This document shows, one piece after another, positions 13,812-29,307 of a stretch of 64,000 bases of DNA (the stretch's first letter is position 1; each line of letters begins with the position of its first letter). Origin of the DNA: Rhodohalobacter halophilus (GTDB lineage: Bacteria; Bacteroidota; Rhodothermia; Balneolales; Balneolaceae); the NCBI RefSeq assembly GCF_001715195.1, contig NZ_MDWE01000001.1, forward strand, positions 1-64,000, given 5' to 3'. The notes under the pieces were generated by a model that had not been told where the DNA came from, ran no database searches, and saw only the letters and a program-made list of their open reading frames with translations. The translations under genes and the position numbers were made by a program.

Positions 13812-13903
13812 GCATTATAACGGTATGGTGTTTCTGCGGCGGGGCTAGATATTAACCATCGAGCTAGCAAATGCTTACCGATCGCACGAACCGCTGGTTA
13901 TGC
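13812..13903 (-). other. attC-like recombination site A (degenerate)
   Basis: 92 bases. The minus strand begins GCATAAC and ends near GTTATAATGC. Inner arms (AGCGGTTCGTGCG on the minus strand against TGCGG/TTTC pieces on the other side) pair only partly, with an extra G in the same place as in the other sites. The higA stop codon TAA lies within GCATAAC. This is the weakest of the seven sites. Confidence 0.5.
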
Positions 13904-14188
13904 CTGAACAGTTTTTAGGGATTTAATGTGTCTATTTGGACGATTTGATGACAGATCGTGCATAGACTGTAAATTCAGCCAAAATTCAGGAGAGGTATCG
14001 AACGCCTCGGATAGCAGCCAGGCTGTATCCGGAGAGACTCCTCTTTTACCTCTCACAATTTCATTAACCCGCTGGATCGGTATGTCCAGATGATCCGCCA
14101 ACTCCTTCTGAGTTAGTCCCATTGGCTCAAGATATTCTTTGAGCAGAATGGTTCCGGGATGTGTGGTTACTCTATTTTTTGGAATCAT
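13898..14188 (-). CDS. higA: HigA-type antitoxin (XRE family)
   Basis: A 96-residue HigA addiction-module antitoxin. The N-terminal THPGTILLKEYLEPMGLTQ is the family signature, followed by a helix-turn-helix (KELADHLDIPIQRVNEIVRG) and the conserved SPEFWLNLQ segment. It neutralises the HigB mRNA interferase and represses its own promoter. It lies 22 bases after higB on the same strand, in the toxin-first order usual for higBA. Its stop codon is embedded in attC-like site A, as expected for an integron gene cassette, where such modules stabilise arrays. Confidence 0.92.
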   Translation of the reverse strand: MIPKNRVTTHPGTILLKEYLEPMGLTQKELADHLDIPIQRVNEIVRGKRGVSPDTAWLLSEAFDTSPEFWLNLQSMHDLSSNRPNRHIKSLKTVQA

Positions 14189-14210
14189 GATGATTCACCC
14201 ATGTTATTCA

Positions 14211-14501
14211 TTAATGATAATCGACAATAGCAACGTCATAAGCATTGGAATCCTGCCAGCGGAATACGATTCTCCATTGGGCGTTGATACGAATGCTATG
14301 ATAACCCTTGTAATCAGCCCGCAATGCTTCTAGCCTGTTGCCGGGTGGAGATCTCAAATCGTCAAGAGAAGTAGCTGCATTCAGTATATCCAGTTTATAG
14401 GTGGCGGATTCAAGAATTTGGGTCGGGAGCTTCCTGACTTTGCTGCTTGAAATGCCATGAAACAAGTCTGACGTTGCTTTATCTTCGAATGTTTTGATCA
14501 T
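14211..14501 (-). CDS. higB: HigB-type toxin (RelE superfamily ribosome-dependent mRNA endonuclease)
   Basis: A 96-residue protein with the HigB/RelE fold: MIKTFEDKATSDLFHG, RKLPTQILESATYKLDIL, the SPPGNRLEAL box and the core strand HSIRINAQWRIVFRW. HigB cleaves mRNA on translating ribosomes. The family length and the catalytic-surface arginine and tryptophan are kept, so it appears functional. It starts 52 bases after attC-like site B and is followed by higA, forming a complete two-gene cassette bounded by sites B and A. Confidence 0.92.
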   Translation of the reverse strand: MIKTFEDKATSDLFHGISSSKVRKLPTQILESATYKLDILNAATSLDDLRSPPGNRLEALRADYKGYHSIRINAQWRIVFRWQDSNAYDVAIVDYH

Positions 14502-14553
14502 TCTTCAATTTAATGGATTAACGGTATCCATGCAACGAAATTGTTTAGTGAGG

Positions 14554-14685
14554 GCATAACGGTCTGCGGTTTAACCGGCTTGGCCTTATTGACAAGTAAT
14601 GTAACTAAAACTGGGAATTTTTATCAGCCAACAAATTTTGAACCGGCAAACAGCGGCCAAGTCCGCGTTGAAACCGTTGTTATGC
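14554..14685 (-). other. attC-like recombination site B
   Basis: 132 bases, bounded by gcataac (14554-14560) and gttatgc (14679-14685); the match extends to gggcataac/gttatgccc. Inner arms: cggtttaac on the left against cgttgaaaccg on the right, pairing with one unpaired base in the right (minus-strand 5') arm. The long centre includes AT-rich sequence. It precedes higBA in the transcription direction. Confidence 0.72.
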
Positions 14686-14719
14686 CCACAAGATAGACTG
14701 CTTATAATTTAATGGAAGA

Positions 14720-14766
14720 TCAATGCTCGTGTCCACCTTCTCCTTGTTTCATTTCGGCCAGCAGGA
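14720..14766 (-). pseudogene. Fragment duplicating the 3' end of the czcB-like gene
   Basis: About 47 bases nearly identical (roughly four differences) to the end of the adaptor gene at 17377-17423. It encodes LLAEMKQGEGGHEH and a stop, against LLAEMKKGEGGHEH in the intact gene. Nothing upstream in this frame resembles the rest of the adaptor, so it is a remnant. It lies just downstream of the P-type ATPase gene and 35 bases before attC-like site B, suggesting a past duplication or recombination at the edge of the metal island. Confidence 0.75.
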
Positions 14767-14815
14767 TAAGTACAACAGCGTGGTGTTTTAAGGTTGTTGA
14801 CCTTAGAAATTAAAA

Positions 14816-17272
14816 TCAGCTTTTATACCCCAACAACCTCAACGCATTAAACACAACCACCAGCGTAGACCCTTCGTGAGCCATCACGGCCGGGCCAATA
14901 CTCAATCCCAAAATTGTTGCGGGTATCAGGATCACAACCATGCCCAGGCTTATCCACAGGTTTTGTTTAATAATGGTTTTGGTTTTGCGGCTCAACCCAA
15001 TGGCAAAAGGAAGTACGGAAAGCTTGTCGGCCATCAATGCTACATCAGCAGTTTCGAGCGCTACATCCGAACCGGCAGCCCCCATCGCAATCCCTACGGT
15101 GCTGTTGGCCATGGCGGGAGCATCATTAACACCATCACCTACCATTGCAACTTCACCCTCGCTATTTCTAAGTTCTTTTATAGCTTCCACCTTGTCCTCC
15201 GGCAGCAGGTTCCCTTTGGGATCATCTATGCCTATAGTTTTGGCTACGGCATCGGCTACCCGCTGGTTATCGCCGGTTAGCATAATCAGGTGCGAAAGCC
15301 CGATAGTTCGTAATTGTTGAATGACCTTTTTGGCGTCTTCCCGCGGAGTATCCATCAGTCCGATGATTCCAAGGTAACGCTCATTGTAGCGTACCACCAT
15401 GGTTGTCTTTCCTTCCTCTTCAAGCTTTTTTACCTGGTCTTTTAATTCGTTGGGAATTTTTGTGCCTTCGGCTTCTTCAAAAAGCTTTAAATTTCCAATA
15501 AAAACCTGAGCACTATGTAGTATGGCTTTAACCCCCTTACCGGTAACAGATTCCAAATCTTCTGCTTCGGGAAGTTCCGTTCCATTCAATTTATCTTTTC
15601 CATCTCTGACTACCGCAACCGCAAGGGGATGATCACTAAGGCTTTCTATTGCTACGGCCGTAGAAAGCAGTTCCTTCTCATCGGAATCGTCAAAAGGAAT
15701 TACATCTGTTACCCTCGGTTTTCCCTCGGTCAGGGTTCCGGTTTTGTCAAAAGCCAGAGCTTTGAGGCCCCCCAGATTTTCCAGCGGGCGTCCTCCTTTG
15801 ATGAGCACTCCACCTCGCGCCGCACGCGCCACCCCGCTTAGTACCGCACTGGGTGTGGAAATGGCCAATGCGCAGGGACTGGCAGCTACCAGCACGGCCA
15901 TTGCCCGGTAAAAACTGTCTGCAAAAGGTTCATCAACGATCAGAAAGGCAAAGTGAAGTACGACCACCAATACCAGTACCGAAGGCACGAAATATTTTTC
16001 GAATTTATCGGTGAATTGCTGAGTGGGTGATTTTTGTGTTTCGGCTTCGTTCACCAGCGTTATCAATCGGGAGAGCGTTGAGTCTTTTGAAAGTTTGGTG
16101 ACTTTAACTTCCAGGCTACCGTTCCCATTGATAGTCCCGGCAAAGACCCGATGCTTGTCTTCAATCGAATCCGGTTTTTGTTCGATGGTGTCCATGTCGG
16201 CGAACTCCATTTTGTCTGCCGGTACGCTTTCGCCGGTAATGGGAGCTTGGTTTACGCTGCTTTCGCCGTTGATGATGACTCCGTCAGCGGGAATTTTGCT
16301 GTTTGGTTTAATGACAATCACATCACCGATATCGAGCTTTTCCACAGGAACTTCCTCGGTATCTCCGTCTGTTTTTCTCAACGCGGTTTTGGGAGCCAGG
16401 TCGGCAAGGCCCTTAATGGCATCGCGAGCGCGACCCATGGCATAATGTTCCAGTGAGTGACCGAGGCTGAACAGAAACAGCAGCAATGCACCTTCGGCCC
16501 ATTCACCAAGAATAGCAGCTCCAATAGCAGCCACAACCATCAGGAAGTCAATTTCAAAATTTCCTTCTTTTACTTCGGTAAACGATTCCTGCACCAGGTA
16601 AAAACCGCCAAAGAAATAGGCACCGATATATATAGCCAGGGAAGCCCATTCAGGAAATCCGTCCACAAACGAAAGTCCGAAGCCTACCCCAAGAAGTCCT
16701 CCAGATATCAGCGAAAAGATTAACTCCGTTTTCTCTCCAAATATACCGCCATGTTCGTGTTTGTGGTCATGATCATGAACTTCCGCTGTTTCTTCGTGTT
16801 CTTTCTCTTTTGAAGAAGGCGTTTTTTTAACGCTCTTTGAGCGAAACCCCATTTCATACAGTTTACCAAGCAACGCATCATCAAAGGTTGAATCGCGGTT
16901 GAACTCGATACGAATCCGGCCCGTCGCAGAGGCGTATGCATCCACAACACCGGGTAGTTTGTTCAGGCGTTGGGTGATAGAGCGTGCGTGGCGGGATTGA
17001 CGAATGCCGGATACTTCTATCATCAAGTGACCAAAAGTATCGTGAAGTTTGGCTCCAGTAGTTTGGGCTATTTCTTTGATGCGTTGAAGGGTAACCACGT
17101 TAGGATTGTAGTGGATGCAAAGAATGGTGTCTCCATCCTCATCCGATTTTACATGAGCGTAAGAGATACCGTTCCTGCTTTCAAGGGCGCCGATGAGACG
17201 TGGAACGCAGGGATCATCGCTATCGGGGATATCCGGCAGCAAAACCGGCAATTCAATGGTTAATTTTTTCAT
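14816..17272 (-). CDS. P1B-type heavy-metal-exporting ATPase (P1B-4-like)
   Basis: An 818-residue P-type ATPase that pumps metal ions out of the cytoplasm. Residues 1-140 hold two HMA-like ferredoxin folds lacking the CxxC metal motif, followed by a His/Glu linker (EVHDHDHKHEHGG). The core has TGES (ITGESVPADK), the phosphorylation loop AFDKTGTLTEGKPR, SDHPLAVAV and VGDGVNDAPAM. Substrate-selecting motifs are SPC in the sixth membrane helix (ASPCALAISTPSAV) and HEGST near the C-terminus, the pair that defines the P1B-4 subgroup (Co2+, also Zn2+, Cd2+ or Fe2+ in different members). Copper is therefore unlikely. It lies downstream of the czcB/czcA genes on the same strand, separated by a 104-base gap with palindromes. 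Confidence 0.92.
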   Translation of the reverse strand: MKKLTIELPVLLPDIPDSDDPCVPRLIGALESRNGISYAHVKSDEDGDTILCIHYNPNVVTLQRIKEIAQTTGAKLHDTFGHLMIEVSGIRQSRHARSITQRLNKLPGVVDAYASATGRIRIEFNRDSTFDDALLGKLYEMGFRSKSVKKTPSSKEKEHEETAEVHDHDHKHEHGGIFGEKTELIFSLISGGLLGVGFGLSFVDGFPEWASLAIYIGAYFFGGFYLVQESFTEVKEGNFEIDFLMVVAAIGAAILGEWAEGALLLFLFSLGHSLEHYAMGRARDAIKGLADLAPKTALRKTDGDTEEVPVEKLDIGDVIVIKPNSKIPADGVIINGESSVNQAPITGESVPADKMEFADMDTIEQKPDSIEDKHRVFAGTINGNGSLEVKVTKLSKDSTLSRLITLVNEAETQKSPTQQFTDKFEKYFVPSVLVLVVVLHFAFLIVDEPFADSFYRAMAVLVAASPCALAISTPSAVLSGVARAARGGVLIKGGRPLENLGGLKALAFDKTGTLTEGKPRVTDVIPFDDSDEKELLSTAVAIESLSDHPLAVAVVRDGKDKLNGTELPEAEDLESVTGKGVKAILHSAQVFIGNLKLFEEAEGTKIPNELKDQVKKLEEEGKTTMVVRYNERYLGIIGLMDTPREDAKKVIQQLRTIGLSHLIMLTGDNQRVADAVAKTIGIDDPKGNLLPEDKVEAIKELRNSEGEVAMVGDGVNDAPAMANSTVGIAMGAAGSDVALETADVALMADKLSVLPFAIGLSRKTKTIIKQNLWISLGMVVILIPATILGLSIGPAVMAHEGSTLVVVFNALRLLGYKS

Positions 17273-17304
17273 AATACCGTAAAATTTTGGGATAGTAGGG
17301 TAAA

Positions 17305-17370
17305 AAACCTGTCAGGTTTCAAGGTTTGTTCGCTGATAACGGATTGCCCAGGCAGCAACCTGACAGGTTT
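17305..17370. repeat. Paired palindromes between the ATPase and adaptor genes
   Basis: Two copies of a palindrome, aaacctgtcaggttt at 17305-17319 and aacctgacaggttt at 17357-17370, face each other and can form one larger hairpin. The same motif recurs at 36718-36750. It may act as a terminator or attenuator inside the metal operon. Confidence 0.6.
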
Positions 17371-17376
17371 CGTGGA

Positions 17377-18624
17377 TCAATGTTCGTGTCCGCCTTCTCC
17401 TTTCTTCATTTCGGCCAGCAGGTAATATGCGCCTTTGGTTACAAAGCGGATATCTTCCGGAAGGGGTTCAAAGAACCGGACTTCCGTGTACCCGCCATCG
17501 TTTATACCCGGGCGGACCATAATCACTTCAAATTCCATCTCTTCCTCTTCATGGGCGTGGCCATGATCCTCTTCTGTCTGATCGGGTGTATCTGCCTCAT
17601 GAAGAGCAAAAACCAGATATTCATCCCCATTGCGGACAACAGCATCTTCCGGAAGTACCATTGACTGAGTAGTCCCGGTTACGATTCGGCCTTCCACAAA
17701 CATGCCCGGTAAAAGGCCATCTTGTCGTTCTTCAATTTCGGCATGTACTCTTACCGCTCTTGGGTTATCCTCAAAAGCTTTGCCCACCGAGAATATTCGC
17801 GCCCGGTAAAATTGGTCATTGGGTTGATTAGTGTACTTGAATAGTACTTCCTGATCCACACGTACTCTATGAATATCCTTTTCATACACTAACAGATCGA
17901 TGTGAATATGCTCATTATCCACGATTTCAAAAAGGTCTATAGTGGGATCGGCATATTGACCAATGCTGGTTTCGATCACACGCACAAATCCTCCGATAGG
18001 GGCTTTCAATTGAATACTTTCCGCTATTTCAGCTTCTAATACTTTTTCTGGATCCAGATTCAGCATTCTTAACTTCGATTGCAGTGATTGCATATCTGCC
18101 AGTGCTGATTCATACTCGGAACGAGCAAGCTGAAGTTCTCTTTGAGAACCGATTTCATCATTTACAAGGCGTTCTTTTCTTCGAAAATCTGTTTCCAGGT
18201 ACCCGATTTGTCGAGCCGTTTTGCGGTATTCGGCTTGCATTTCAGAAAATAGGGGATTTACCAAATCAGCCAGCACATCACCTTCATTAACAGAGTCTCC
18301 CTCTCGCACGTAAATGTTCTTGACGATTCCACCCAAAACCGCACTTATTTTGGCCTGATTTTGGGGAGGTAGCTCAAGAAAACCGTTGGTTTTAATGGTC
18401 CCGCTTAGTGGTAATGATTCCAATGTACCGAATTCGATTCCGGCAGTTTCTATCTGAAGACCGGTCAGGTGCACGGATTCTTCTTCAGCGTGTTCATCTT
18501 CACCTCCTGCTTCAGATATCTCGTTAGATTTAGTTTCATTTCCATTGGCGTGATCATTCGAGCAGCTTGAAAATGTAAAGCCGAGGGTAAGTAAAAGTGC
18601 AAATAAATAAATTGTTAGTTTCAT
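17377..18624 (-). CDS. RND efflux periplasmic adaptor subunit (CzcB/CusB family), lipoprotein
   Basis: A 415-residue membrane-fusion protein that links the inner-membrane RND pump to the outer-membrane channel. It has a lipoprotein signal (FTFSSC at about residue 20), a His/Glu-rich N-terminal segment (EDEHAEEESVHL), the biotinyl-lipoyl half-motif (GGIVKNIYVREGDSVNEGD), a coiled-coil hairpin (about 130-200) and the beta-barrel domain (LLPGMFVEGRIV). The C-terminus is again His-rich (EEDHGHAHEEEEMEFE, EGGHEH), consistent with metal binding. The start lies 17 bases after the czcA-like stop, so the two are in one operon. A copy of its last codons survives at 14720. Confidence 0.9.
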   Translation of the reverse strand: MKLTIYLFALLLTLGFTFSSCSNDHANGNETKSNEISEAGGEDEHAEEESVHLTGLQIETAGIEFGTLESLPLSGTIKTNGFLELPPQNQAKISAVLGGIVKNIYVREGDSVNEGDVLADLVNPLFSEMQAEYRKTARQIGYLETDFRRKERLVNDEIGSQRELQLARSEYESALADMQSLQSKLRMLNLDPEKVLEAEIAESIQLKAPIGGFVRVIETSIGQYADPTIDLFEIVDNEHIHIDLLVYEKDIHRVRVDQEVLFKYTNQPNDQFYRARIFSVGKAFEDNPRAVRVHAEIEERQDGLLPGMFVEGRIVTGTTQSMVLPEDAVVRNGDEYLVFALHEADTPDQTEEDHGHAHEEEEMEFEVIMVRPGINDGGYTEVRFFEPLPEDIRFVTKGAYYLLAEMKKGEGGHEH

Positions 18625-18641
18625 AGTTTTATAATCTGATG

Positions 18642-21600
18642 TTAATGAGTTTCCTGGAAATAATTGAGTTCAATAATGGCCTCATTCAGGCTCAATACTA
18701 CTTTTTGATAGGTTTGTTCGATCCTCACAGCTTGATTTAAATACTGGGTAAACACGGTATAACTGATGCTTCCCTCTTCATACTGCCGTGTTGCGGATCG
18801 TTGGATCTCAGCCGCATCGTGCTCTCGCCTGATCTTATAAAGTTCATATTGACGCCACCATTTATCAAGGTTTTGCTGTGCCTCTTCATATCGGCTATCC
18901 AGATTTAGTTGAAGCGTCTGAAAATTGGCTTCGGCGATGCCTTCTTCAATGCGGCTTGCTTTAACTCGTTGGCGCTGGGGACCAAACCAAAGGGGAATTC
19001 GAATGCCGACTTCCCAGGCGTAAAATCCATCAGAACCATTTACTCGCTGCCGTTTATACCCTCCGTAAATATTTGGCCAGAACCGCGAACGTTCGATGGC
19101 GGTTTCTTTTTCTTTGACTTCCACTAAACTTTGCCCGGTTTCCAGTAATGGATGAGAGGCAGCTATCGAATCATCTTGAGCGCCTGTTATATTCAACGGC
19201 TCATAATGATCATCCGACGGAGATAATGGGAGATCTGTCATTATCAGGTTTTGAAGCCGTCGTTCAGCAATGGAAACATTAGCTTTTGCTTCCTCCAGTT
19301 TGGCCTGCACTTCGTCATATAATGACTGAGCACTAATCCGCTCCAACCGGTCAATGTCACCGGTTTCATATCGGATTTCTGCTGCCCGGGAAAAGTCGCG
19401 GTAGGTTTCGGCAAGCCGTTCCTGCACCTCCAGAATCGACAGGCTGTATCGCCATTGCTGCCATGCCAATCGAACCTCTTTTCGTAGTTCTGCGCGTGAT
19501 AATGAGAATCGATTACGGGCCAGATCTGTGCGTGCACGTCCGGCCTGTTGCTTTCGGACGGATATCAACGGAAATTCCAATTCTTGTTCAATCCCGAAAT
19601 TTTCAATGCCGCTATTGCCATTTCCTGCTTCTTCCTGAGACATGTACAGCCGGGTGGCAAAAGGTTCAAATGCAGTTCGCGAAAGGGCCGCTTCTCTGTC
19701 AATGGTCAATTCACTTGCTCGAAGCTCGGGATAACGCTCAAGAGCCATCTCCACAGCCTGTTCCTGATGAAGTGTAAGCGTAGAGTCGGCATTGGTTTTT
19801 TGTGCTAAAATAGGAGTAGCTGTACCAACAAAAAGCAAGACAATTGTAGTAGCAACTACGGGTTTAAAGTTCCAGCTCCACGAACGATTTTCTACCAAAC
19901 TGTATAATACAGGTAGCACAATCAGGGTAAGCAGTGTGGCCGTAATCAAACCGCCAATCACTACAGTAGCCAATGGACGCTGTACTTCGGCTCCGGCGGC
20001 TGCGGAAAGTGCCATTGGTAAAAATCCAAACAAGTCAGTAGCCGCTGTAAGCAGGACAGGCCTTAAACGCTGACGAGTACCCATCAGAATCTGTCGATTC
20101 ACATCAGAAATACCGGCTTTTTTTAGTTCATTGAAAAAACTGATGAGAATAATTCCGTTGAGTACGGCAATTCCAAAGAGCACGATAAATCCAACTCCCG
20201 CAGAGATACTAAAGGGCATACCCCGCAGCCATAAGGCAAATACCCCCCCAATGGTGGCTAGCGGAATGGCTGTAAAAACCAAAAGGGCCTGTTTTATCGA
20301 CTTCAGGGAGAAGTAGAGCAGGATAAAAATCAAGGCAAGTGATAGCGGTACTGCAAATAACAAGCGTGTCTGGGCACGTTGCAAATTTTCAAACTGTCCT
20401 CCGTAGGTAATGTTATATCCCGTCGGTAGATTCAATTCACGCTCCAGATTTTGCTGGATTTCTTGTACCAGCGATTGTACATCCTGGCTACCTGCATTCA
20501 CACCAATTACAATTCTACGACGCGTATTATCCCTGGAAATTTGTGCGGGGCCGTCTTCATAGCTGAATTCGACCATTTCTTGAAGCGGAATCTGATCTCC
20601 GTCATAAGCTATAGCGTAAAGATTTCGGATAGATTCAAGGTCACTTACATGAGGTTCGGCCAAACGAACCACAAGATCAAACCGTCGTTCTCCCTCATAA
20701 ATAACACCCGCCTTACCTCCCGCATAAGCGCTTTGAATCAGGTCATTAACCGTTTCAATGTCTACGCCGTATCGAGCCATCTGGTTGCGGTTATACTTCA
20801 CTTTTAGCTGTGGTAGCCCGGTGGTTTGCTCCAGATTGATATCTGATGCACCGGGTAGTTGGCTAATAATCGTACGAGCCTGTTCGCCAAGATCAGCAAG
20901 AATTTGTAGGTCTTCCCCATAAATTTTTACAGCGATATCTTCACGGATTCCTGTCATCAGTTCATTAAAACGCATTTCAATGGGTTGTGAAATAGCAATT
21001 TCAATTCCAGGTAGCTGAGTGAGAGTAACACGTATTTTATCCAGGAGTTCTTCTTTAGTGTCCGCACTTACCCATTCATCTTTGTCTTTTAAAATGACAA
21101 ACATATCCGACATCTCCAGTGACATTGGATCGGTAGGAATTTCTCCCGTTCCGGTTCTGGATACTACCTCAGTTATCTCCGGAAATTCATCCAATAGCAT
21201 TTGCTCCATTTTGGTATTGTTATCGATGACTCTACTCAGAGAGGTTCCGGGTTTTGTAATGGGGTGAATAGCTAAATCTCCTTCGTCAAGCTGGGGTATA
21301 AATTCTCCACCCATACGACTGTATATGAATAAGCTTGTGACCAAGAGTAATACAGCACTTCCGACAACCAAACCTTTATTGCGAAGTGCTGAAATTATTA
21401 AGGGACGATATATTCGGTAGGTCATAAAGTCCATAAGGTTCTGCGAAAACTTAAGTTCGCCCTGACCTCCGGGTTTAAGAAAAAGCGCCGATGCAGCGGG
21501 TACATAGGTAAGACAGAGCAGAATGGCTCCGATCATTGCAAAAGCGAAAGTTAAAGCCATGGGTTGAAACATTTTTCCTTCAACTCCGGTGAGTGTAAGA

Positions 21601-23000
21601 ATGGGTACAAATACGATTAAGATAATTAACTGACCAAAGAAGGCTGAACTCATCATTCGTCCGCCCGATTCTATGGCCAAATCATCGATACGTTTGGATA
21701 GGTTTCTCCCTTTCAATTTTTGGAGTTCCGGTTTTTGAGAGCTGATCAAATAAGCGGTAAACTCCACTATAATGACTGCACCATCAATAATAATTCCAAA
21801 GTCAATGGCCCCGAGGCTCATAAGGTTAGCGGTAATCCCAAATGTATTCATCATTCCAATAGCAAAAAGCATAGCCAAAGGGATCACTGAAGCTACAATC
21901 AGACCAGATCGAATATTTCCCAAGAGAAGTACGAGGAAAAAGATAACAATCAATGCTCCCAAGATGAGATTTTCTGAAACCGTAGAAGTGGTTTTATTAA
22001 TAAGTTTCGTTCGGTCAATAAACGGTTCTATGGACACTCCCTCAGGCAGAGACTGCTGAATTTCTGTAATGCGTTCTTTTACATTTTTAACAACCTGATC
22101 GGAATTCTGACCTTTCAGCATTAATACCTGTCCACCAACAGCTTCCCCTTCACCGTTCCGGGTCATAGCTCCATAGCGTACGGCATGACCAAACTGAACG
22201 TCTGCGATATCCCCAATCAAAACCGGAATCTTATTTTGGGTATCCACCACTATTTTTTTAAGATCATCGGTATTTTCGGCCAATCCCTCACCGCGAATGA
22301 AGATTGCTTCCGGGCCTTTTTCTACATAGCTGCCCCCAACATTGCGATTATTACGTTCCAGCGCCTCCATAACATCGGAGAACGTCAAGTTCATGCTCCG
22401 TAGTTTTTCCGGGTTTACGGCTACCTCGTACTGCTTTACTTTCCCTCCAGTACTGTTGATTTCCACTACACCGGGAACACCTGCAAGCTGGCGTTTGACA
22501 ATCCAGTCCTGGATCGTGCGAAGGTCTGTAATGTCGTATTCATCTTTAAGAGCATCATCTACCACAAGTGTATACTGGTAAATTTCTCCTAATCCGGTAG
22601 TTATAGGCATAAGTTCAGGCGAACCAAAGGCTTCGGGAATATTGGCTCTTGCCGCTTCCAGTTGTTCGCTGACTAACTGGCGAGGATTATAGGTACCCAT
22701 ATCATCTTCAAAGACAATTGTAACAACAGAAAGGCCCATTTTTGAAACGGAACGCATTTCTTTTACGCCAGGCAGATTTGCCATAGCAAGTTCTACAGGG
22801 TAGGTAACAAACTGCTCCACCTCCTGTGTGGCCAGGGTTGGGGTAGTGGTAACGACGCGTACCTGGTTATCGGTGATATCCGGTACGGCATCAATGGAAA
22901 GTTGGGTTAGAGACCATGCGCCCCAGCCTATCCAGGCCAGCATAAACAAACTGACAATCAATTTATTGCGCACGGAATAGCGGATGATATTCTCAATCAT
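18642..23000 (-). CDS. Heavy-metal RND pump fused to a TolC-like outer-membrane factor
   Basis: A 1452-residue fusion. Residues 1 to about 1040 are a CzcA/CusA-type proton-driven pump (VPDITDNQVRVVTTTP, two periplasmic loops, 12 membrane helices). The fourth-helix motif DFGIIIDGAVIIVEF carries the D-D-E charges of divalent-cation (CzcA-like) members rather than the CusA pattern, so Zn2+, Co2+ or Cd2+ is the likely cargo. From about 1060 a hydrophobic segment with a cleavage-like site (ATPILAQ) leads into a TolC-family outer-membrane factor (two long coiled-coil repeats, AEIRYETGDIDRLERISAQ, RQYEEGSISYTVF). Pump and exit duct in one chain are known in Bacteroidota; the junction may be processed. 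With czcB it would form a complete tripartite system. Confidence 0.92.
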   Translation of the reverse strand: MIENIIRYSVRNKLIVSLFMLAWIGWGAWSLTQLSIDAVPDITDNQVRVVTTTPTLATQEVEQFVTYPVELAMANLPGVKEMRSVSKMGLSVVTIVFEDDMGTYNPRQLVSEQLEAARANIPEAFGSPELMPITTGLGEIYQYTLVVDDALKDEYDITDLRTIQDWIVKRQLAGVPGVVEINSTGGKVKQYEVAVNPEKLRSMNLTFSDVMEALERNNRNVGGSYVEKGPEAIFIRGEGLAENTDDLKKIVVDTQNKIPVLIGDIADVQFGHAVRYGAMTRNGEGEAVGGQVLMLKGQNSDQVVKNVKERITEIQQSLPEGVSIEPFIDRTKLINKTTSTVSENLILGALIVIFFLVLLLGNIRSGLIVASVIPLAMLFAIGMMNTFGITANLMSLGAIDFGIIIDGAVIIVEFTAYLISSQKPELQKLKGRNLSKRIDDLAIESGGRMMSSAFFGQLIILIVFVPILTLTGVEGKMFQPMALTFAFAMIGAILLCLTYVPAASALFLKPGGQGELKFSQNLMDFMTYRIYRPLIISALRNKGLVVGSAVLLLVTSLFIYSRMGGEFIPQLDEGDLAIHPITKPGTSLSRVIDNNTKMEQMLLDEFPEITEVVSRTGTGEIPTDPMSLEMSDMFVILKDKDEWVSADTKEELLDKIRVTLTQLPGIEIAISQPIEMRFNELMTGIREDIAVKIYGEDLQILADLGEQARTIISQLPGASDINLEQTTGLPQLKVKYNRNQMARYGVDIETVNDLIQSAYAGGKAGVIYEGERRFDLVVRLAEPHVSDLESIRNLYAIAYDGDQIPLQEMVEFSYEDGPAQISRDNTRRRIVIGVNAGSQDVQSLVQEIQQNLERELNLPTGYNITYGGQFENLQRAQTRLLFAVPLSLALIFILLYFSLKSIKQALLVFTAIPLATIGGVFALWLRGMPFSISAGVGFIVLFGIAVLNGIILISFFNELKKAGISDVNRQILMGTRQRLRPVLLTAATDLFGFLPMALSAAAGAEVQRPLATVVIGGLITATLLTLIVLPVLYSLVENRSWSWNFKPVVATTIVLLFVGTATPILAQKTNADSTLTLHQEQAVEMALERYPELRASELTIDREAALSRTAFEPFATRLYMSQEEAGNGNSGIENFGIEQELEFPLISVRKQQAGRARTDLARNRFSLSRAELRKEVRLAWQQWRYSLSILEVQERLAETYRDFSRAAEIRYETGDIDRLERISAQSLYDEVQAKLEEAKANVSIAERRLQNLIMTDLPLSPSDDHYEPLNITGAQDDSIAASHPLLETGQSLVEVKEKETAIERSRFWPNIYGGYKRQRVNGSDGFYAWEVGIRIPLWFGPQRQRVKASRIEEGIAEANFQTLQLNLDSRYEEAQQNLDKWWRQYELYKIRREHDAAEIQRSATRQYEEGSISYTVFTQYLNQAVRIEQTYQKVVLSLNEAIIELNYFQETH

Positions 23001-23128
23001 ATCTATTCGTTTAAGGTTAAAAAATGTTGGGAGACGGATTAGAGACCGTATGATTCTCGGGGCTGTTCTATCCGGGATAAAAAATGAATGGGCAGTGTTT
23101 TATACTGCCTGAAAAGGAAAGGCGGGTA

Positions 23129-23569
23129 TCAAATAAGCAGGCGGGTAACGCGAAGTACTTTAAGCGAAGCCTTTGGAGGAGGTAAAAATCTTTCTAAAAG
23201 GGTAACTGAACCTCTTTCTGATTGGAAAGTTGTAGTAAAAAGAAGTTTAGGAATGGGAATATATTCTATTTGATGGTCAACTTCTTTTTTGGTCTTTACC
23301 CAAAAATCATCGTAGCAGCAGGAGCTGTGAAAAGAGTGATATTCATGTTCTTCGTCCTTCGTTAGGTGATTTGGGTCAAGATCTTTGTGATGATCCATGA
23401 CCAGTTCGTAACAACCTTCATCCGCATTGTAGATGAAGAATATCTGGTGTGATTCACCCATAGCGGCAACTTGCATGGGAACCGCTAAAACAAGTAGTGC
23501 CCATGAAAAGGAGAATGAGCCAAGTGCCAACTTAAGAATCGGGTTGATATGTGAACGAATGAATTTCAT
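23129..23569 (-). CDS. Small exported His/Cys protein upstream of the metal-efflux genes
   Basis: A 146-residue protein with an N-terminal hydrophobic signal segment (about 12-36). The mature part is rich in potential metal ligands: GCYELVMDHHKDLDPNH, EHEYHSFHSSCCYDDF, and it ends with a basic tail after RFLPPPK. Small secreted proteins with CC and PP motifs are often found next to metal-efflux operons in Bacteroidota, and this resembles that group, though without its classic HYC motif. It is the first gene of the minus-strand island, 128 bases before the pump. I infer a periplasmic metal-binding or sensing role; no enzymatic function is visible. Confidence 0.65.
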   Translation of the reverse strand: MKFIRSHINPILKLALGSFSFSWALLVLAVPMQVAAMGESHQIFFIYNADEGCYELVMDHHKDLDPNHLTKDEEHEYHSFHSSCCYDDFWVKTKKEVDHQIEYIPIPKLLFTTTFQSERGSVTLLERFLPPPKASLKVLRVTRLLI

Positions 23570-23621
23570 CAGGTGTGAAGATAAGGAAAAACTGTTAAAG
23601 TTAAATTGCGCGATTAAGTGG

Positions 23622-23709
23622 GCATAACGGCTCAGGGCTTAAGCGGCGAGGCAATCAACTTTAAATGAGGCAAAATCGTAAACTCGTCCGCTTGAAGCCC
23701 TTGTTAACC
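23622..23709 (-). other. attC-like recombination site C
   Basis: 88 bases, bounded by gcataac (23622) and gttaacc (ending 23709). The inner arms are GGGCTTAAGCGG and CCGCTTGAAGCCC: perfectly complementary except for one extra base, the classic unpaired base of attC sites. The stop codon of the PIN-like gene (23704-23706) lies inside the right core. This is the cleanest of the seven sites. Confidence 0.8.
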
Positions 23710-24051
23710 TTCTTTATCGCTGATTTCAACGACATTCTCACCGCTTTGAAGCAACTCTATAGCTTTACGTAAGGCAGATGATAAAATTTCTCTCATCCTG
23801 GCGTTAGAAGTGTTGCCACATGTAACCCAGATAAGCTTAGGCGGCGTACCCCTTTGTTCAATAAGCTGTATGAAATCGTCGTCTTTACTCATGACAATCA
23901 CATTTGCTTTCTTTGCCTCTTCAAAAATCTCAGGATCTGTTGCATCACGAAGACCAAGAGAACGAACCGACTCTGCTTCTATATCATCAAAGGTGCGGTT
24001 AATCCACGCTGCTATTGCTGGTGAGAGCTGTGCATCAATCCAAAGTTTCAT
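23704..24051 (-). CDS. DUF5615 PIN-like protein (toxin partner of DUF433)
   Basis: A 115-residue protein of the DUF5615 PIN-like family. The acidic residues expected of a PIN nuclease are present: D7 in MKLWIDAQLSP, RDATDPEIFEEA and SKDDDFIQLI. Such proteins pair with DUF433 antitoxin-like genes, and here the start overlaps the DUF433 stop by four bases (ATGA), which shows co-translation. The stop codon falls inside the core of attC-like site C, so gene pair and site form one cassette. RNase activity is inferred from fold membership only. Confidence 0.88.
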   Translation of the reverse strand: MKLWIDAQLSPAIAAWINRTFDDIEAESVRSLGLRDATDPEIFEEAKKANVIVMSKDDDFIQLIEQRGTPPKLIWVTCGNTSNARMREILSSALRKAIELLQSGENVVEISDKEG

Positions 24052-24272
24052 GCCGCAACGATCGGGTGATCAATTTTCCCACGGGCATACTTGATGGAAG
24101 CTTCAATATCTTCTTTTTCCAAATCAGACAATTCTTCCAAAATCTGCTCATGACTGAGACCGGCTGCAAGCAGATCCAATACGTCAACGACACGGATTCT
24201 CATGCCCCTTATGCATGGCCTTCCACCACATTGATCGGGATTGGTAGTAATGCGTTTTCTCCAGTCTTTCAT
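24048..24272 (-). CDS. DUF433 antitoxin-like protein
   Basis: A 74-residue DUF433 protein: RKRITTNPDQCGGRPCIRG is the family signature, followed by a helix-turn-helix-like part (IRVVDVLDLLAAGLSHEQIL, DLEKEDIEASIKYA). It would bind DNA and neutralise the PIN-like partner encoded immediately downstream with a four-base overlap. The gene begins 74 bases past attC-like site D, which gives room for a cassette-borne promoter. Confidence 0.9.
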   Translation of the reverse strand: MKDWRKRITTNPDQCGGRPCIRGMRIRVVDVLDLLAAGLSHEQILEELSDLEKEDIEASIKYARGKIDHPIVAA

Positions 24273-24345
24273 TTTGGTAAAATTTTGTTGAACTCTATTG
24301 AAATCTACTTAAAACACGGCAGATATCATAGATTGAGGAAAAGGA

Positions 24346-24472
24346 GGTTAACGACCTTGCGCATAAGCTGCACGCGAATGAACGTTGAATTAGCAACTAA
24401 CGAAAGACGAGACTCAAAACCAAGAGGGGCAAAGAATTGGCGATGCGTGTCCGCTTAATGCGCGGGTTAGGT
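24346..24472 (-). other. attC-like recombination site D
   Basis: 127 bases, bounded by ggttaac (24346) and gttaggt (ending 24472). Inner arms GCGCATAAGCTGCACGCG and TGCGTGTCCGCTTAATGCGC pair with two unpaired bases (T and A) on the minus-strand 5' side, as in the other sites. It lies 29 bases downstream of the GLUG lipoprotein stop. Confidence 0.72.
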
Positions 24473-24500
24473 TGCTGGCTAAACATTGATTTAAGCTATA

Positions 24501-26504
24501 CTACTCCCAGAATAGAGCTGGATAGTTTTCGGTGGTAACCCAAATTTCTGTCCAGTCGAACTCGGTCATATTATCTTCTGCTGAATTCCCAGTCATTTCA
24601 GAAGTTGTAAGACCTGTAGTGCCATCTGATACTCCTCTACCTATACCTTCATTTTGGTTAGAGTTTTCTTTATCCCAATAGCTTCCATTAATAGTAGAAC
24701 CATTAGTGCCAACTAGACCACCAATATCCGTGTTTCCTAAAACTTGACCTATAGAATAAGAATTTGAAATTGTTCCATCATCCATATTTATGCCTGCTAA
24801 ACCACCAACTTCTTCATCACCTTCAACCTTACCAAGAGCATAAGAGTTTTCAATTGATGAATTAAGGCCATTTTGGCCAACTAAACCACCAATTTTATTC
24901 TGCATGCCTATTACATTCCCGCTAGCAAAGGAGCTAATTATATCTCCTCTTTGATTCATTCCAACTAAACCACCAACCCTTTCTTTACCGTGTACACGCC
25001 CTGTTGCATACGAATTCTCAATGTTTCCATCATTCCATCCAGCTAATCCACCAACTGAATATCCACCACTTTCATGGTTTTCGCCTATGTTTTCAACATT
25101 TCCTTTTGCATATGAATCTATAATGGAACCTGTATTGCTGCCAATTAGACCACCTGTTCGTCCATATCTACCATCAGCTTTTACAGAAACATCAGCTGAA
25201 GAATTAAGAATTTCCCCACCAAATTGAGAACCAACTAAGCCACCAGTTTCTGTACCAGAACTGGAAACTGTACCACTGGCATGAGAATTTTCAATACTCC
25301 CTCTTGAATAACCAGCTAAAGCACCAACATTTCGATTATTACTGTGAATCGTGCCATTTAAGGAAATATTTGAAATTGAACTAAAATTTCTACCAACTAA
25401 ACCACCAACAAAACTGTCTCCCATAACATCAATATTAGTAATATTAATATTCTCAATATTACCATCTTCTGTATACCCAAATAAGCCTACGTTTTCTTGA
25501 TTAAGCCTATTTATATAAAGATTAGAAATATTAAAATCGTCACCGTCATAAGACCCAGTAAATTTAACGACTTCATCACCTATTGGGTTAAAACCTTTGC
25601 CGTCATTCCAATTTTCTGTTGCACTAGCATCAATATTATTGATTTGTACGAAATGATCATTTGTATATTCATTAATGGATTGCAACTGTTCAACAGTTGA
25701 AACCTGGAATGGATTTGCTTCTGACCCATTCCCCCCTGCAAATATAGAATGTGTAAATAATGCGTCAATATTAATCGTACTGTCAATTGAAACAGTTATA
25801 GGATTGTTGGTTGATGTAGTATCACCATCCCAAGATTCAAACTCCCAGTCTGATGAACTTGGCTCAGCCAATAATTCAACTTCAGTTCCATATTCATATT
25901 CTTCCTGATCTGGTGTAACAGCAACAGAACCTTCACCTGATACCTCAATTGAAAGGGGATAAGTAGCAACTTCAAATACCGCCGTTACTTCTTTTGGGTT
26001 ATCAATTGTTATTTGAGATGGATTTTCGGTTCCACTAAGATCTCCTTGCCACTCTACAAACTCATATCCTTCTTGTGGCTCTGCTGTTAATTCTACTACG
26101 GTTCCATGGTCATATTCTGTAGATTTCTGTTGAACAATTCTTTCATTTACAGATCCTTCTCCTTCTTTATTAATCGTTAGTTCATAGCTTTTTATTTCAA
26201 AATTTGCTGTAATATTATAATCCTGATCAACAGTTAGCGAGTGTGGATTGTCGGTAGATTCAATATCTCCTGACCATTCTGTAAAAACATATCCATCATT
26301 TGGATTGGCTTGTAGTTCAATTTCTTCTCCCTCTTCATAATCATCTTCAGCAGAGGGGGATATTGAACCTGCTTCAGATGGTGATATATCAACAGATACT
26401 GAATAAGTGGTAGTATCTTCATTATTGGGACCAGTTCCACTGTCGCTGCATGAAATGATTGATATGCTAAACAAAAGAATAAAGGCAAATAGTAGCTGTC
26501 TCAT
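24501..26504 (-). CDS. Surface lipoprotein with InlB-type repeats and GLUG repeats
   Basis: A 667-residue exported lipoprotein (lipobox SIISC near residue 19). Three InlB/Listeria-Bacteroides-like repeats of about 70 residues follow (ELQANPNDGYVFTEWSGD, ELTAEPQEGYEFVEWQGD, LLAEPSSSDWEFESWDGD). From about residue 330 there are at least eight GLUG-type repeats (VGGLVGRN, VGALAGYS, TGGLIGSN, VGGLAGWN, VGGLVGMN), which stack into a beta-solenoid typical of adhesins. It ends with a strand containing WTEIWVTTENYPALFW. It would sit on the cell surface and bind carbohydrate or cells. At 2 kb it is a long single-gene cassette between attC-like sites E and D, and it is visibly more AT-rich than the housekeeping genes. 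Confidence 0.88.
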   Translation of the reverse strand: MRQLLFAFILLFSISIISCSDSGTGPNNEDTTTYSVSVDISPSEAGSISPSAEDDYEEGEEIELQANPNDGYVFTEWSGDIESTDNPHSLTVDQDYNITANFEIKSYELTINKEGEGSVNERIVQQKSTEYDHGTVVELTAEPQEGYEFVEWQGDLSGTENPSQITIDNPKEVTAVFEVATYPLSIEVSGEGSVAVTPDQEEYEYGTEVELLAEPSSSDWEFESWDGDTTSTNNPITVSIDSTINIDALFTHSIFAGGNGSEANPFQVSTVEQLQSINEYTNDHFVQINNIDASATENWNDGKGFNPIGDEVVKFTGSYDGDDFNISNLYINRLNQENVGLFGYTEDGNIENINITNIDVMGDSFVGGLVGRNFSSISNISLNGTIHSNNRNVGALAGYSRGSIENSHASGTVSSSGTETGGLVGSQFGGEILNSSADVSVKADGRYGRTGGLIGSNTGSIIDSYAKGNVENIGENHESGGYSVGGLAGWNDGNIENSYATGRVHGKERVGGLVGMNQRGDIISSFASGNVIGMQNKIGGLVGQNGLNSSIENSYALGKVEGDEEVGGLAGINMDDGTISNSYSIGQVLGNTDIGGLVGTNGSTINGSYWDKENSNQNEGIGRGVSDGTTGLTTSEMTGNSAEDNMTEFDWTEIWVTTENYPALFWE

Positions 26505-26570
26505 CTAAATATTTTCTTTCTTGAAAATTTGCACCCGTTCAGAAGGTAAACCTTGTGTAGTAGTTAAGCA

Positions 26571-26660
26571 ACCTAACGGTTCTCGGTTTGTGCTGCCGGG
26601 CGACCAACACTTAAGTAGGATGAGAATCCTGAACCGGTCAGCACGAAACCGTTGTTATGC
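26571..26660 (-). other. attC-like recombination site E
   Basis: 90 bases, bounded by acctaac (26571) and gttatgc (ending 26660). Inner arms CGGTTTGTGCTGCC and GGTCAGCACGAAACCG pair perfectly except for two unpaired bases (C and A) on the minus-strand 5' side. Confidence 0.78.
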
Positions 26661-26685
26661 AATCTTTTAGGGGGTTTTGAGCAAG

Positions 26686-27390
26686 TTATTTAAACTCGAT
26701 CTTTTGAAGTTCCGATAAGAACTGTTCGTCTTCATTTCCAACTGCATTCTGAGGTTCAAAAGTCACCATCCAAACATATACATTGCCTTTGTATTCAAAA
26801 GCTACAGCATTCCAAGTTGCTTTTCTTGGAGTATCTGCATCTAGCTTTACGTAAGTTCCTGAAACATTCGCTATTTGAACTTCTCTTTCAATAAGAACAT
26901 TATGCCCGCGAGTAAATCCTCTCAATATTGTTGCTGTCGGGTTTTCAACTTCAGGTAAATTTTCATATACAATTGAAGCATAATTTAAATGTGAATTGTT
27001 GGGAGAATAAACATAATTCGCCATTATGATATCCCCTCCCATATTTTGTTTTGTTTCATTTGGAGTTCCTGGAAAAGGTAATATTACATCATAAACTTGG
27101 AATCCATCTTCAATAATATTGTACTCATTAAAGTCAGTAGCATTTATTGCAAATATGGAAGCAATTAGAAGTAATGGCAATTTACTTTTTAGTCCTTTAC
27201 TATTTTCATGAGTATTATCGCTTACATCTGAAGTTTGCTGTTTTTCATCCTCATCTTCTTTTGATTTTTTTGAAAACGCACTCAAAAAAATAAGAGCAGG
27301 AATCACCATCCAAGGTCCATCAAGCCCTATAGCAACCATTATAGGGACAAGAAGTAAACCTGTAATTAGTTTTGGGTAGTTTATATTCAT
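26686..27390 (-). CDS. Hypothetical membrane-anchored protein, last gene of a three-gene cassette
   Basis: A 234-residue protein starting at the ATG 27388-27390 (MNINYPKLITGLL). It has two or three hydrophobic segments in the first 110 residues (about 8-40 and 70-90), separated by a charged loop (KKSKEDEDEKQQTSDVSD), and a C-terminal beta-rich domain of about 140 residues with FEYKGNVYVWMVTFEP. I do not recognise the family; the C-terminal domain resembles small extracytoplasmic sensory or binding modules. It follows two other membrane-protein genes on the same strand and ends 26 bases before site E. Confidence 0.7.
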   Translation of the reverse strand: MNINYPKLITGLLLVPIMVAIGLDGPWMVIPALIFLSAFSKKSKEDEDEKQQTSDVSDNTHENSKGLKSKLPLLLIASIFAINATDFNEYNIIEDGFQVYDVILPFPGTPNETKQNMGGDIIMANYVYSPNNSHLNYASIVYENLPEVENPTATILRGFTRGHNVLIEREVQIANVSGTYVKLDADTPRKATWNAVAFEYKGNVYVWMVTFEPQNAVGNEDEQFLSELQKIEFK

Positions 27391-27415
27391 GATTTTTAGA
27401 TTTACAGGTGTTTGT

Positions 27416-27700
27416 TTAAGAAGCAAGGTTTCCAATAAGGTTCAAAAATCCTATAAGTAACCAAGCTACAAGAAATGTCCATTTAAAGGATGTTTTATCG
27501 AATGACCCTCCAAATATTTTGTAAACTCCCCCCACAATGAAGGATAGAATAGCAGGTATGGCTAATAAAGCAAGAAGGTATCCCAAAAGTGAAGCGATTG
27601 CCATATCGAATGTTGTTTGTTGAAAATGTTTAAGGTTCACAAAAAATGAGAAGGCCAAACTCAAAAGAATGATTACAATCCAAAATTTATTTGTTTTCAT
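27416..27700 (-). CDS. Hypothetical small membrane protein in the three-gene cassette
   Basis: A 94-residue protein with three hydrophobic helices (about 7-24, 33-57, 72-91: IVIILLSLAFSFFVNL, LGYLLALLAIPAILSFIVGG, FLVAWLLIGFLNLIGN). There are no catalytic motifs and no family is recognised. It lies between two other genes of unknown function with gaps of 21 and 25 bases, so the three are probably co-transcribed and co-inherited as a cassette. Confidence 0.65.
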   Translation of the reverse strand: MKTNKFWIVIILLSLAFSFFVNLKHFQQTTFDMAIASLLGYLLALLAIPAILSFIVGGVYKIFGGSFDKTSFKWTFLVAWLLIGFLNLIGNLAS

Positions 27701-27721
27701 AACTGAATTAATTGTTTTGAT

Positions 27722-28150
27722 TTACTGACAATCAGATGGATGGACTTCAACTGATCCAATTTCATTTCCATCAAGAGAAAAATAAGTGTACTTGAGAGTA
27801 TGATGAGATCTTAATTCTTTGATCTTATCATCATTGCAAACATTTGAAGAAATGTAATTTCGAGCCATTTCCATATAAAATTCTCTTGAAAACTCGTCAA
27901 ATGTAAAACCCTCAGTATTTAAATCGGTATGGTACCAAGTAAAAGTACCGAGAGTGCTATTATCACCAGTACTAAAAGAAACGCTGTCCTGACTTATTCC
28001 GTCAATAACCTTTGGTAATTCTAAGTTCAGGTTCTTTGCAACATCAAAGTTATTACGAATTGCGGCCTTTTCTCCCAACAGTCCACCCACATATCTCGAA
28101 AGCAAGATCAAAAGAATTACAATACCCCAAAATTTAATAGCGTTCTTCAT
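27722..28150 (-). CDS. Hypothetical protein with N-terminal membrane anchor, first gene of the three-gene cassette
   Basis: A 142-residue protein with one hydrophobic helix at about 5-22 (IKFWGIVILLILLSRYVGG) and a soluble C-terminal domain of about 110 residues with two cysteines (SSNVCNDD, HPSDCQ) that could form a disulphide. No family recognised. It opens the cassette, 41 bases past attC-like site F, a distance compatible with a promoter located in or near the site. Confidence 0.65.
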   Translation of the reverse strand: MKNAIKFWGIVILLILLSRYVGGLLGEKAAIRNNFDVAKNLNLELPKVIDGISQDSVSFSTGDNSTLGTFTWYHTDLNTEGFTFDEFSREFYMEMARNYISSNVCNDDKIKELRSHHTLKYTYFSLDGNEIGSVEVHPSDCQ

Positions 28151-28190
28151 TCCTCTTAATTAATGGAAAACTGCCAACGATTAAAAGTTG

Positions 28191-28282
28191 CATAACGACT
28201 TTGCGCGTAACCTGCGCCACCAAAGGACACAAAACTAAAACACTAATTCGAGTGGCGTCAGAGTTGACGCGCTTGTTATTTG
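28191..28282 (-). other. attC-like recombination site F
   Basis: 92 bases, bounded by gcataac (28191) and gttattt (ending 28282). Inner arms GCGCGTAACCTGCGCCAC and GTGGCGTCAGAGTTGACGCGC are complementary along their full length apart from three single unpaired bases (C, T, A), all on the minus-strand 5' side. Confidence 0.8.
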
Positions 28283-28336
28283 ACGAACTAACCAAAAGCA
28301 AAGAATAAGATTATGGAAAACTATAAAATAGCTGAA

Positions 28337-28474
28337 ATGCTAAAAGATAAAATTTATAATGTTGAAGAAAGCAGAAAATCAGAAAACCCGAATGACAGAA
28401 TAAGCACAGTTCATTTATCGCCAGAAGTATTTTTGAAAATGGCTTATCTGTTTGTAGGCATTCACGGCAAATAA
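28337..28474 (+). CDS. Small ORF of 45 codons inside a short cassette, antisense to the array
   Basis: A 45-residue hydrophilic ORF beginning MLKDKIYNVEE and ending LFVGIHGK, on the plus strand, unlike the other cassette genes. Its stop codon lies in the left core of attC-like site G. One base earlier in the upstream A-run, GGAAACT, would join it to an in-frame ATG at 28314 and add about eight residues (MENYKIAE), so the gene may be frameshifted or the run mis-sequenced. No family recognised; composition looks coding, but a chance ORF is possible. Confidence 0.35.
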   Translation: MLKDKIYNVEESRKSENPNDRISTVHLSPEVFLKMAYLFVGIHGK

Positions 28475-28559
28475 CGATTTGGCAAATAAGCGGCGCGGCT
28501 AAGTAATTGAATGTAAGCAACTAAAAGCAAACGCGTCCGCTTAATTTGCTTTGTTATAT
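28469..28559 (-). other. attC-like recombination site G
   Basis: 91 bases, bounded by aaataac (28469) and gttatat (ending 28559). Inner arms GCAAATAAGCGGCGCG and CGCGTCCGCTTAATTTGC pair perfectly except for two unpaired bases (T and A) on the minus-strand 5' side. This is the rightmost site found; the genes to its right would be the first cassette. Confidence 0.78.
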
Positions 28560-28656: not shown

Positions 28657-29307
28657 TTAGTTAACAGGTAAGAGCATTCCTTCTTTGTCCGTTACAAATA
28701 CAGAAGTATAGTCACCATCTTCCTGAAATTTAGCTTTCAGGGTGTCCCTTCGAATAGAAAAGCGAACATAATTGACCTCTCCTTGGCGCCTTGCTAACAT
28801 TATACCTGGCAGTCCAATTTCTGAAGGTAATTTAGTAATAGGTTCAAGTCTTCTTTCTCGATCGATACGAAAATGCCGATGATTAATTAATACATCATAA
28901 CAATCTCCACCTTTTTCACAGCCACTCAATTGAAGATATAGGTTGTTTTGATCATCGAAACCAACAAAGTGTCCCGAAAATGATTCCCATGTTGCATCAT
29001 TCGCTGATAATTCTGCTAACAGCCGGGACACTCGGTCTTTCGCATGCACTTCGTATACTTTTACTTCCTGACTTAAAATTCGGGGTACTCCTCCGTTAGG
29101 AAAAGTGTTTAAAAATCCAGTTGGACTGCGAAATACCTTAGACTCCACCAGCACATATGCTGTGTAAGTGTCTCCCGATCTAACAACCTGATCAATCACC
29201 ACTCGACGTTCCTCGGGGCTGTAGGTACAGGCCGAGATACCAAAGTAGATCACTGTTAAGAGGATTACCCGGACCAACCCTTGTTTAGTTTGATATTCAA
29301 TTATCAT
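28657..29307 (-). CDS. Hypothetical lipoprotein, probable cassette gene
   Basis: A 216-residue protein with a signal segment and lipobox GISAC at about residue 26, followed by a beta-rich mature domain containing a cysteine pair (SGCEKGGDC). No family recognised. Its start overlaps the stop of the upstream small membrane gene by four bases (ATGA), so the two are co-translated. Attc-like site G lies about 100 bases downstream, consistent with this pair being the right-most cassette, although no boundary site is seen on its other side. Confidence 0.7.
   Translation of the reverse strand: MIIEYQTKQGLVRVILLTVIYFGISACTYSPEERRVVIDQVVRSGDTYTAYVLVESKVFRSPTGFLNTFPNGGVPRILSQEVKVYEVHAKDRVSRLLAELSANDATWESFSGHFVGFDDQNNLYLQLSGCEKGGDCYDVLINHRHFRIDRERRLEPITKLPSEIGLPGIMLARRQGEVNYVRFSIRRDTLKAKFQEDGDYTSVFVTDKEGMLLPVN

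Follow-up and report, generated by a model that had tools for sequence, protein, structure and literature searches.

Can a gene-cassette array with no integrase beside it still belong to a working integron? This question is raised by the first 64,000 nucleotides of contig NZ_MDWE01000001.1 of Rhodohalobacter halophilus (Balneolaceae), the stretch called the window here, in which seven attC-like sites and their cassettes adjoin the chromosomal gene priA. The array was found to start at an attI site that closely resembles the attI of an integrase gene, intI, on another contig of the same genome. We read the locus as a probable satellite integron, consisting of an attI and seven cassettes, which most likely lost its own intI, would be served in trans by the distant integrase, and has an attI that would be kept like the other copies in the genome. 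A probability of roughly 0.7 is given to this reading, which is built on sequence comparison. In the following, genomes are labelled G, contigs C, and fetched loci L; the window lies on contig C1 of genome G000, from which contigs C8, C27, and C52 were also used.

The attC array and its attI

The original prediction described seven attC-like sites of one design on the minus strand. They were searched for, with search filters off, using an attC covariance model trained on 21 attC from elsewhere (other contigs and other genomes) and on no window site. It recovered all seven, each on the minus strand, at scores between 39 and 80 bits (E 1.6e-7 to 3.2e-18), and the eighth-best match in the window had an E of 2. 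The seven sites are true attC. Their coordinates and strand, the toxin-antitoxin pairs, the lipoprotein-like gene, and the adjoining priA were likewise as described. In a family alignment of 93 attC (92 distinct), 92.9% of cells were paired, and two-sided changes occurred in 300 cells versus 99 in shuffles and 17-84 with slid partners. As the structure guided the alignment, these pair counts are biased towards it. The arms of the sites carry unpaired extra bases. Orientation of the attC equals that of the genes except at cassette 2, which has no gene on the attC strand. A hand-made attC detector scored five of the seven sites at 25.6-32.1 and missed two, while shuffled DNA reached 28.4; it was too weak and served only for choosing training sites.

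The attI, which had been overlooked together with the gene of cassette 1 and the intI on another contig, sits at 29374-29520 between the array and priA and was matched by an attI model built from 22 copies, based on sequence only and covering one attI type. Because the attI is located there, the gene at 28657-29307 becomes part of cassette 1. The window sequence at 29363-29520 is 95.6% identical to the stretch directly upstream of the intI on C52, and the attI itself is 98.6% identical to the intI-linked attI. The genome holds three attI copies, at priA (C1), behind nrdJ without intI (C8), and beside intI (C52). Identity among them is 96-98% in the 130 bp to the left of the core (GTTAT), falls to 61-68% in the 80 bp to the right, and is 50-59% past the left edge, the latter two being values that unrelated sequence also reaches in global alignment. 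Copies that are alike up to the core and diverge right after it show the pattern of attI with different first cassettes. The attI contains a conserved AT-rich block. A sigma-70 promoter spotted there by eye is not claimed, since a promoter scan of the attI gave no match on the cassette strand. Several attI types of the genus, as seen in intI-linked regions, have, upstream of the core, a short repeated motif peculiar to the type, e.g., TTATTCGGACA or TTATTTAACC; these motifs are perhaps binding sites that change along with the integrase.

The integrase of the genome

The absence of an integrase, as originally stated, holds for contig C1, but not for the genome. While the tyrosine recombinase profile PF00589 and the IntI family profile TIGR02249 gave 9 and 13 matches genome-wide, none lay on C1. 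A full IntI is encoded at C52:4763-5704 with 431.8 bits (family cut-off 265 bits), and its closest solved structure is Vibrio IntI4 (2a3v, E 7e-82). This intI has its own array of five attC on its side, reaching the contig end, and the genome as a whole holds 30 attC at an E of 0.01 or better. Near relatives of the IntI were encoded in T5-Br10_B2g13 (LKNA01000146.1, 97%) and GSL.Bin13 (JAAAOB010000133.1, 83%), followed by Balneolaceae CSSed165cm_266 (68%) and Fodinibius salsisoli (58%). A candidate second intI on C27 (L018 8322-9352) was rejected, as it scored 92 bits, below the cut-off, and ended about halfway through the family model; the reading frame or frames directly after it we take to resemble an IS91-type transposase.

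Occurrence of attI without intI in the genus and order

Arrays of this kind were thought to be seldom described, but attC were present in 27 of the 28 genus genomes and are not rare here, and intI above the cut-off was found in 15. The attI model gave 47 matches in 18 of the 28 genomes. Among the 128 genomes of the order, it matched eight further genomes of the same family, with short and weak matches in G077, G083, and G100, and none outside the family.

The fetched loci comprised 40 attI copies, while 7 of the 47 matches fell outside this tally, and 104 of their 109 attC rows were used, five weak ones (E 0.004 to 0.04) being omitted. Five copies had a full intI at 52-128 bp and one (G005:C9) a 59-residue intI fragment. 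The remaining 34 had no intI within 5 kb and are called solo attI; a left flank of at least 2 kb was available for 31 of them. Where at least 1 kb of downstream sequence was present, same-strand attC followed the solo attI in 21 of 25 cases, 20 of them within 3 kb. With the 30 attC of G000 evenly spread, a 3-kb stretch would hold 0.014 sites on the same strand. In all 40 rows, the 8 kb downstream were free of attC on the opposite strand. A single upstream attC also accompanied each of three copies, and two of these lie on one contig bearing several attI (L064, G021:C304). On that contig, three attI in the same direction lie within 8 kb; a single attC separates the first from the second, and another follows the third. 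The near-complete genomes G012 and G005, with 20 and 18 attC, respectively, gave two attI matches apiece and no full intI, G005 retaining its intI fragment.

Several solo attI share a left neighbour between species, with gene names given by eye or recall: an OsmC-like gene in G004, G008, and G023, a TonB-type gene pair in G008, G014, and G025, a Dabb-type gene in G012 and G016, and a GNAT-type gene in G024 and G027.

The priA locus in relatives and the exchange of cassettes

In G000, G009, and G023, priA adjoins attI, with different cassettes behind the attI in the three species. G009 has the genes flanking the window array on both sides in the same order, including the beta-lactamase-family gene behind the array, and carries an attI, one attC, and genes that look toxin-antitoxin-like by eye in place of the seven cassettes and the Fic unit. 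In G023, priA and attI are followed by another first cassette and then by the contig end. Neither low covariance scores nor a frozen gene order was found, the scores being high and the gene content between attI and the flanking gene differing among relatives.

The PriA proteins of the relatives are 91-92% identical. At the DNA level, G000 and G023 share 81.9% identity over the 3' end of priA; blastn of G009 against the window returned nothing, so no DNA value is given for that pair. Cassette 5 has an 86% identical copy right behind a different solo attI, that of the OsmC locus, in G023:C2. For cassette 7, a 91% identical copy is flanked by an attC with E 1.4e-8 and a weak one with E 0.003 in an array of G023:C6 that bears intI. 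Set against the 81.9% of the priA end, these values show that cassettes are exchanged across species between arrays with intI and arrays at solo attI.

Likeness of attI copies within genomes

Copies of attI from one genome cluster together, with some genomes as exceptions. A first tree was made from 35 of the 40 attI rows, weak and partial rows being omitted. The tree for the label test held 45 copies, made up of 34 of those 35 (without G009:C82, a contig-end duplicate) and 11 of 12 additional ones (without a short match at L234). For 38 copies from 14 genomes, the genome label required 18 changes, compared with at least 27 in 500 shuffles (mean 30.6). The three copies of G000 form a supported group (96/93), and the priA attI of G000 is 86.1% and 76.3% identical to its positional relatives. 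Placing positional relatives in one clade was rejected by the approximately unbiased (AU) test for the priA (p 0.026) and Dabb loci (p 0.001).

The matching extends to G003 and G002, whose integrases are of other types than that of G000. The attI on the priA side of G002 is 97.9-99.4% identical to its own intI-linked attI. The attI model found none at 14 nrdJ-side loci, a blank explained by its covering one type. Comparison with each genome's own type revealed an attI at this side in G003, with 81-85% identity to the one linked to its intI. A weak attI was also obtained in G009:C222, where the sequence behind nrdJ shows a faint likeness to the attI of the second intI of this contaminated bin, scoring 73 in local alignment against at most 44 for shuffled sequence.

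The priA locus of G002 retains scraps of intI, an N-terminal piece and, by eye, a C-terminal end. Compared with intI regions, this scar reaches 60.3% identity for the resident one (score 49), 68.5% for that of G009 (score 79), and a score of 71 for that of G000. The attI next to it, behind which the contig stops after 10 bp, is 99.4% identical to the resident intI-linked attI. Such an abrupt shift from 60.3% to 99.4% would be the trace expected from gene conversion of attI. Gene conversion was proposed for Vibrio cassette sites in the available part of PMC1382264, and the idea is applied here to attI.

Origin of the array and alternative explanations

A profile of the 5' part of intI, searched against 44 left flanks (without two of the 34 solo copies, L070, which has no flank, and the second L074 copy), gave four clear matches with E 7e-6 or better (G095:C213, the G002 priA locus, G095:C101, and G009:C249) and four weaker ones (E 0.03-0.7), compared with none at E 1 among 200 control pieces. 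At G009:C249, the flank comprises 136 bp only and a full intI may be present. The remnants beside solo attI make loss of intI from complete integrons a likely origin for some copies; such loss is supported in relatives, and from these we infer it for the window locus. Under the satellite reading, an ancestral intI at priA would have been lost, leaving the attI and its array. The IntI of C52 would recognise its own attI as well as those at priA and nrdJ and insert and remove cassettes at all three, acting in trans at the latter two, while the attI copies of the genome, probably kept alike by gene conversion, would remain matched to the resident integrase. The cassettes would be expressed from the attI.

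A first alternative is an ordinary decayed integron, in which intI was deleted, the attI is a leftover, and the priA array changes solely by decay and homologous recombination. The intI scraps beside attI in relatives (the G005:C9 fragment, G002 priA, G095:C213, and G095:C101) are in line with it, as are G012 and G005 with their arrays and attI. However, close relatives share an intI-less priA attI yet differ in its cassettes, the priA attI of G000 is far closer to the resident intI-linked copy than to its positional relatives (98.6% versus 86.1% and 76.3%), and attI and intI scar in G002 have different histories, so that decay is considered unlikely. Complete integrons could also have been inserted repeatedly and independently at the same favoured loci, each being of the recent local type and each soon losing its intI. 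This would account for attI types at priA and nrdJ that vary between species and can match the resident type, and for a distance from gene end to attI that differs between species. It requires several strikes at the same loci with quick loss each time, and the G002 scar is closer to the intI regions of G009 and G000 (79 and 71) than to the resident one (49), which makes it improbable. Least credible is that the attI and its upstream block moved alone as a small mobile element and gathered cassettes at new sites. Many attI copies have a sharp left edge near the same motif with unrelated flanks, and most left flanks lack an intI remnant, but remnants do lie beside several copies, and their finding reduced the idea to a minor rival. 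Empty-site comparison at priA moreover gave no comparable site, the neighbouring genes differing in more distant relatives, and no process is known to move an attI by itself.

Several observations weigh against the satellite integron preferred here. The priA and nrdJ loci are bare in most relatives. Among the fetched priA-side loci, attI was found in 4 of 16 (G000, G009, G023, and, of another type, G002) and attC in 3 of 16, some contigs being short. On the nrdJ side, attC occurred in 3 of 15 loci (G000:C8, G003, and G009:C222). No intI homologue or remnant was found in the 5 kb beside the window attI, and 4 of the 25 solo attI with sufficient sequence lacked a downstream attC (L079, L124, the second L074 copy, and L133). 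The locus carries signal as well: its label required 6 changes on the attI tree against a shuffled mean of 8.5, with 6 of 500 shuffles as low, and the AU test did not reject the positional clade for TonB (p 0.086) and OsmC (p 0.34). In the fetched loci, G004, G008, G023, and G027 have solo attI of the G000 type, whereas the attI at the intI of these genomes belongs to another type, and G003 has, in addition to its own-type copy, a G000-type attI on contig C7. Many relatives are draft assemblies, in which several contigs stop at attI, that of G002 among them, and G009 is 9% contaminated. Finally, recombination at the priA attI is something we infer, no event having been observed, and the turnover of cassettes at priA could instead reflect homologous recombination or predate the loss of intI.

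A wider picture, put forward tentatively and at somewhat less than even odds, is that of a distributed integron in salt- and soda-lake Balneolaceae. A single integrase would serve several arrays, each headed by an attI, at priA, nrdJ, and other fixed loci, with attI kept in step by gene conversion and, in G002, the attI type even swapped in place.

Cassettes and flanking genes

The features of the array are listed in Table 1. Pfam searches of the 142- and 249-amino-acid proteins of cassette 3 gave no match. The DUF433/DUF5615 pair of cassette 5 is presumably a toxin-antitoxin pair. Usual integron cassettes are far shorter than cassette 6, which encodes a protein of 146 amino acids, a fusion of a resistance-nodulation-division (RND) pump with an outer-membrane efflux domain, a membrane-fusion protein, and a P-type ATPase. 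The fusion occupies a single open reading frame of 1452 amino acids at 18642-23000 (PF00873 plus PF02321). A relative of this operon in G022:C14 has 82-87% DNA identity and no attC within the 18 kb fetched, so the operon was probably captured into cassette form. After the last attC lies a Fic-domain gene (PF02661, 12980-13870) without an attC of its own, the start region of which looks split across frames. A small reading frame on the opposite strand faces it and may encode an antitoxin.

Table 1. Features of the priA-side array in window coordinates, from the priA flank to the far flank (aa, amino acids).
Feature	Position	Strand	Evidence or content
priA, chromosomal flank on the attI side	29694-32129	-	PF17764, PF18074
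attI, array head (GTTAT core 29374-29378)	29374-29520	-	attI model, 116 bits
Cassette 1, gene of 216 aa	28657-29307	-	no Pfam match
attC of cassette 1	28469-28559	-	attC model, 79.9 bits, E 3.2e-18
Cassette 2, ~279 bp	28196-28474		no gene on cassette strand; short opposite reading frame by eye
attC of cassette 2	28190-28281	-	attC model, 50.0 bits, E 2.3e-10
Cassette 3, genes of 142, 94, and 249 aa	26686-28150	-	open reading frame list
attC of cassette 3	26571-26660	-	attC model, 69.2 bits, E 2.1e-15
Cassette 4, gene of 667 aa, InlB-type and GLUG repeats, lipoprotein-like	24501-26504	-	PF18998, PF07581
attC of cassette 4	24346-24472	-	attC model, 39.1 bits, E 1.6e-7
Cassette 5, DUF433/DUF5615 pair	23704-24272	-	PF04255, PF18480
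attC of cassette 5	23622-23709	-	attC model, 73.6 bits, E 1.5e-16
Cassette 6, ~9.07 kb, metal-efflux operon	genes 14816-23569 (cassette 14560-23627)	-	PF00873, PF02321, PF16576, PF00122
attC of cassette 6	14554-14685	-	attC model, 51.9 bits, E 7.2e-11
Cassette 7, HigB-like toxin and helix-turn-helix antitoxin	13898-14501	-	PF05015, PF01381
attC of cassette 7, end of array	13815-13903	-	attC model, 46.5 bits, E 1.8e-9
Beta-lactamase-family protein, chromosomal flank beyond the array end	11060-12724	-	PF00144

Significance and comparison with known systems

Integrase-less arrays are mostly read as products of decay or dead relics. If an attI that has gone unrecognised and matches a distant integrase is present in many of them, they would be working stations of one system, and a genome could hold several first-position cassettes simultaneously. 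Beyond class 1 integrons, attI can be defined by comparing copies within a genome, and pairs of attI and IntI form a natural series for studying joint change of site and enzyme. No description of attI-headed arrays served by a distant intI was found in the open-access literature searched, subscription papers and preprints being outside this scope.

With a complete sedentary chromosomal integron, the window array shares the attI at its head, the attC array, and cassettes mostly in one direction; it differs in having no intI beside the attI, the intI lying on another contig. Delta-attI gene cassettes of class 1 and 2 integrons, as the accessible part of PMC12901181 presents them, are also pieces of attI away from intI and are recombined by IntI1. 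They are mostly short attI ends inside arrays, whereas the window attI is the chromosomal head of a separate array. In Xanthomonas, clusters of attC sites lacking an integrase (CALINs) lie at fixed secondary loci away from the ilvD integron. According to PMC12444791, a functional IntI can mobilise these clusters in trans; the portion at hand mentions neither an attI at these loci nor a match between attI and resident integrase.

The label CALIN, given to the array in the original prediction, fits by the definition used in IntegronFinder, at least two attC and no nearby intI, as quoted from the sections available of PMC9024848. The same sections count 2961 CALINs and 2760 complete integrons and describe attI outside class 1 integrons as poorly described and not detected, so that array heads of this kind would go unseen. 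The label does not convey that the array has a head, an attI akin to the one at the resident integrase. The window array is thus a variant of CALIN, an integrase-less integron array with a maintained attI.

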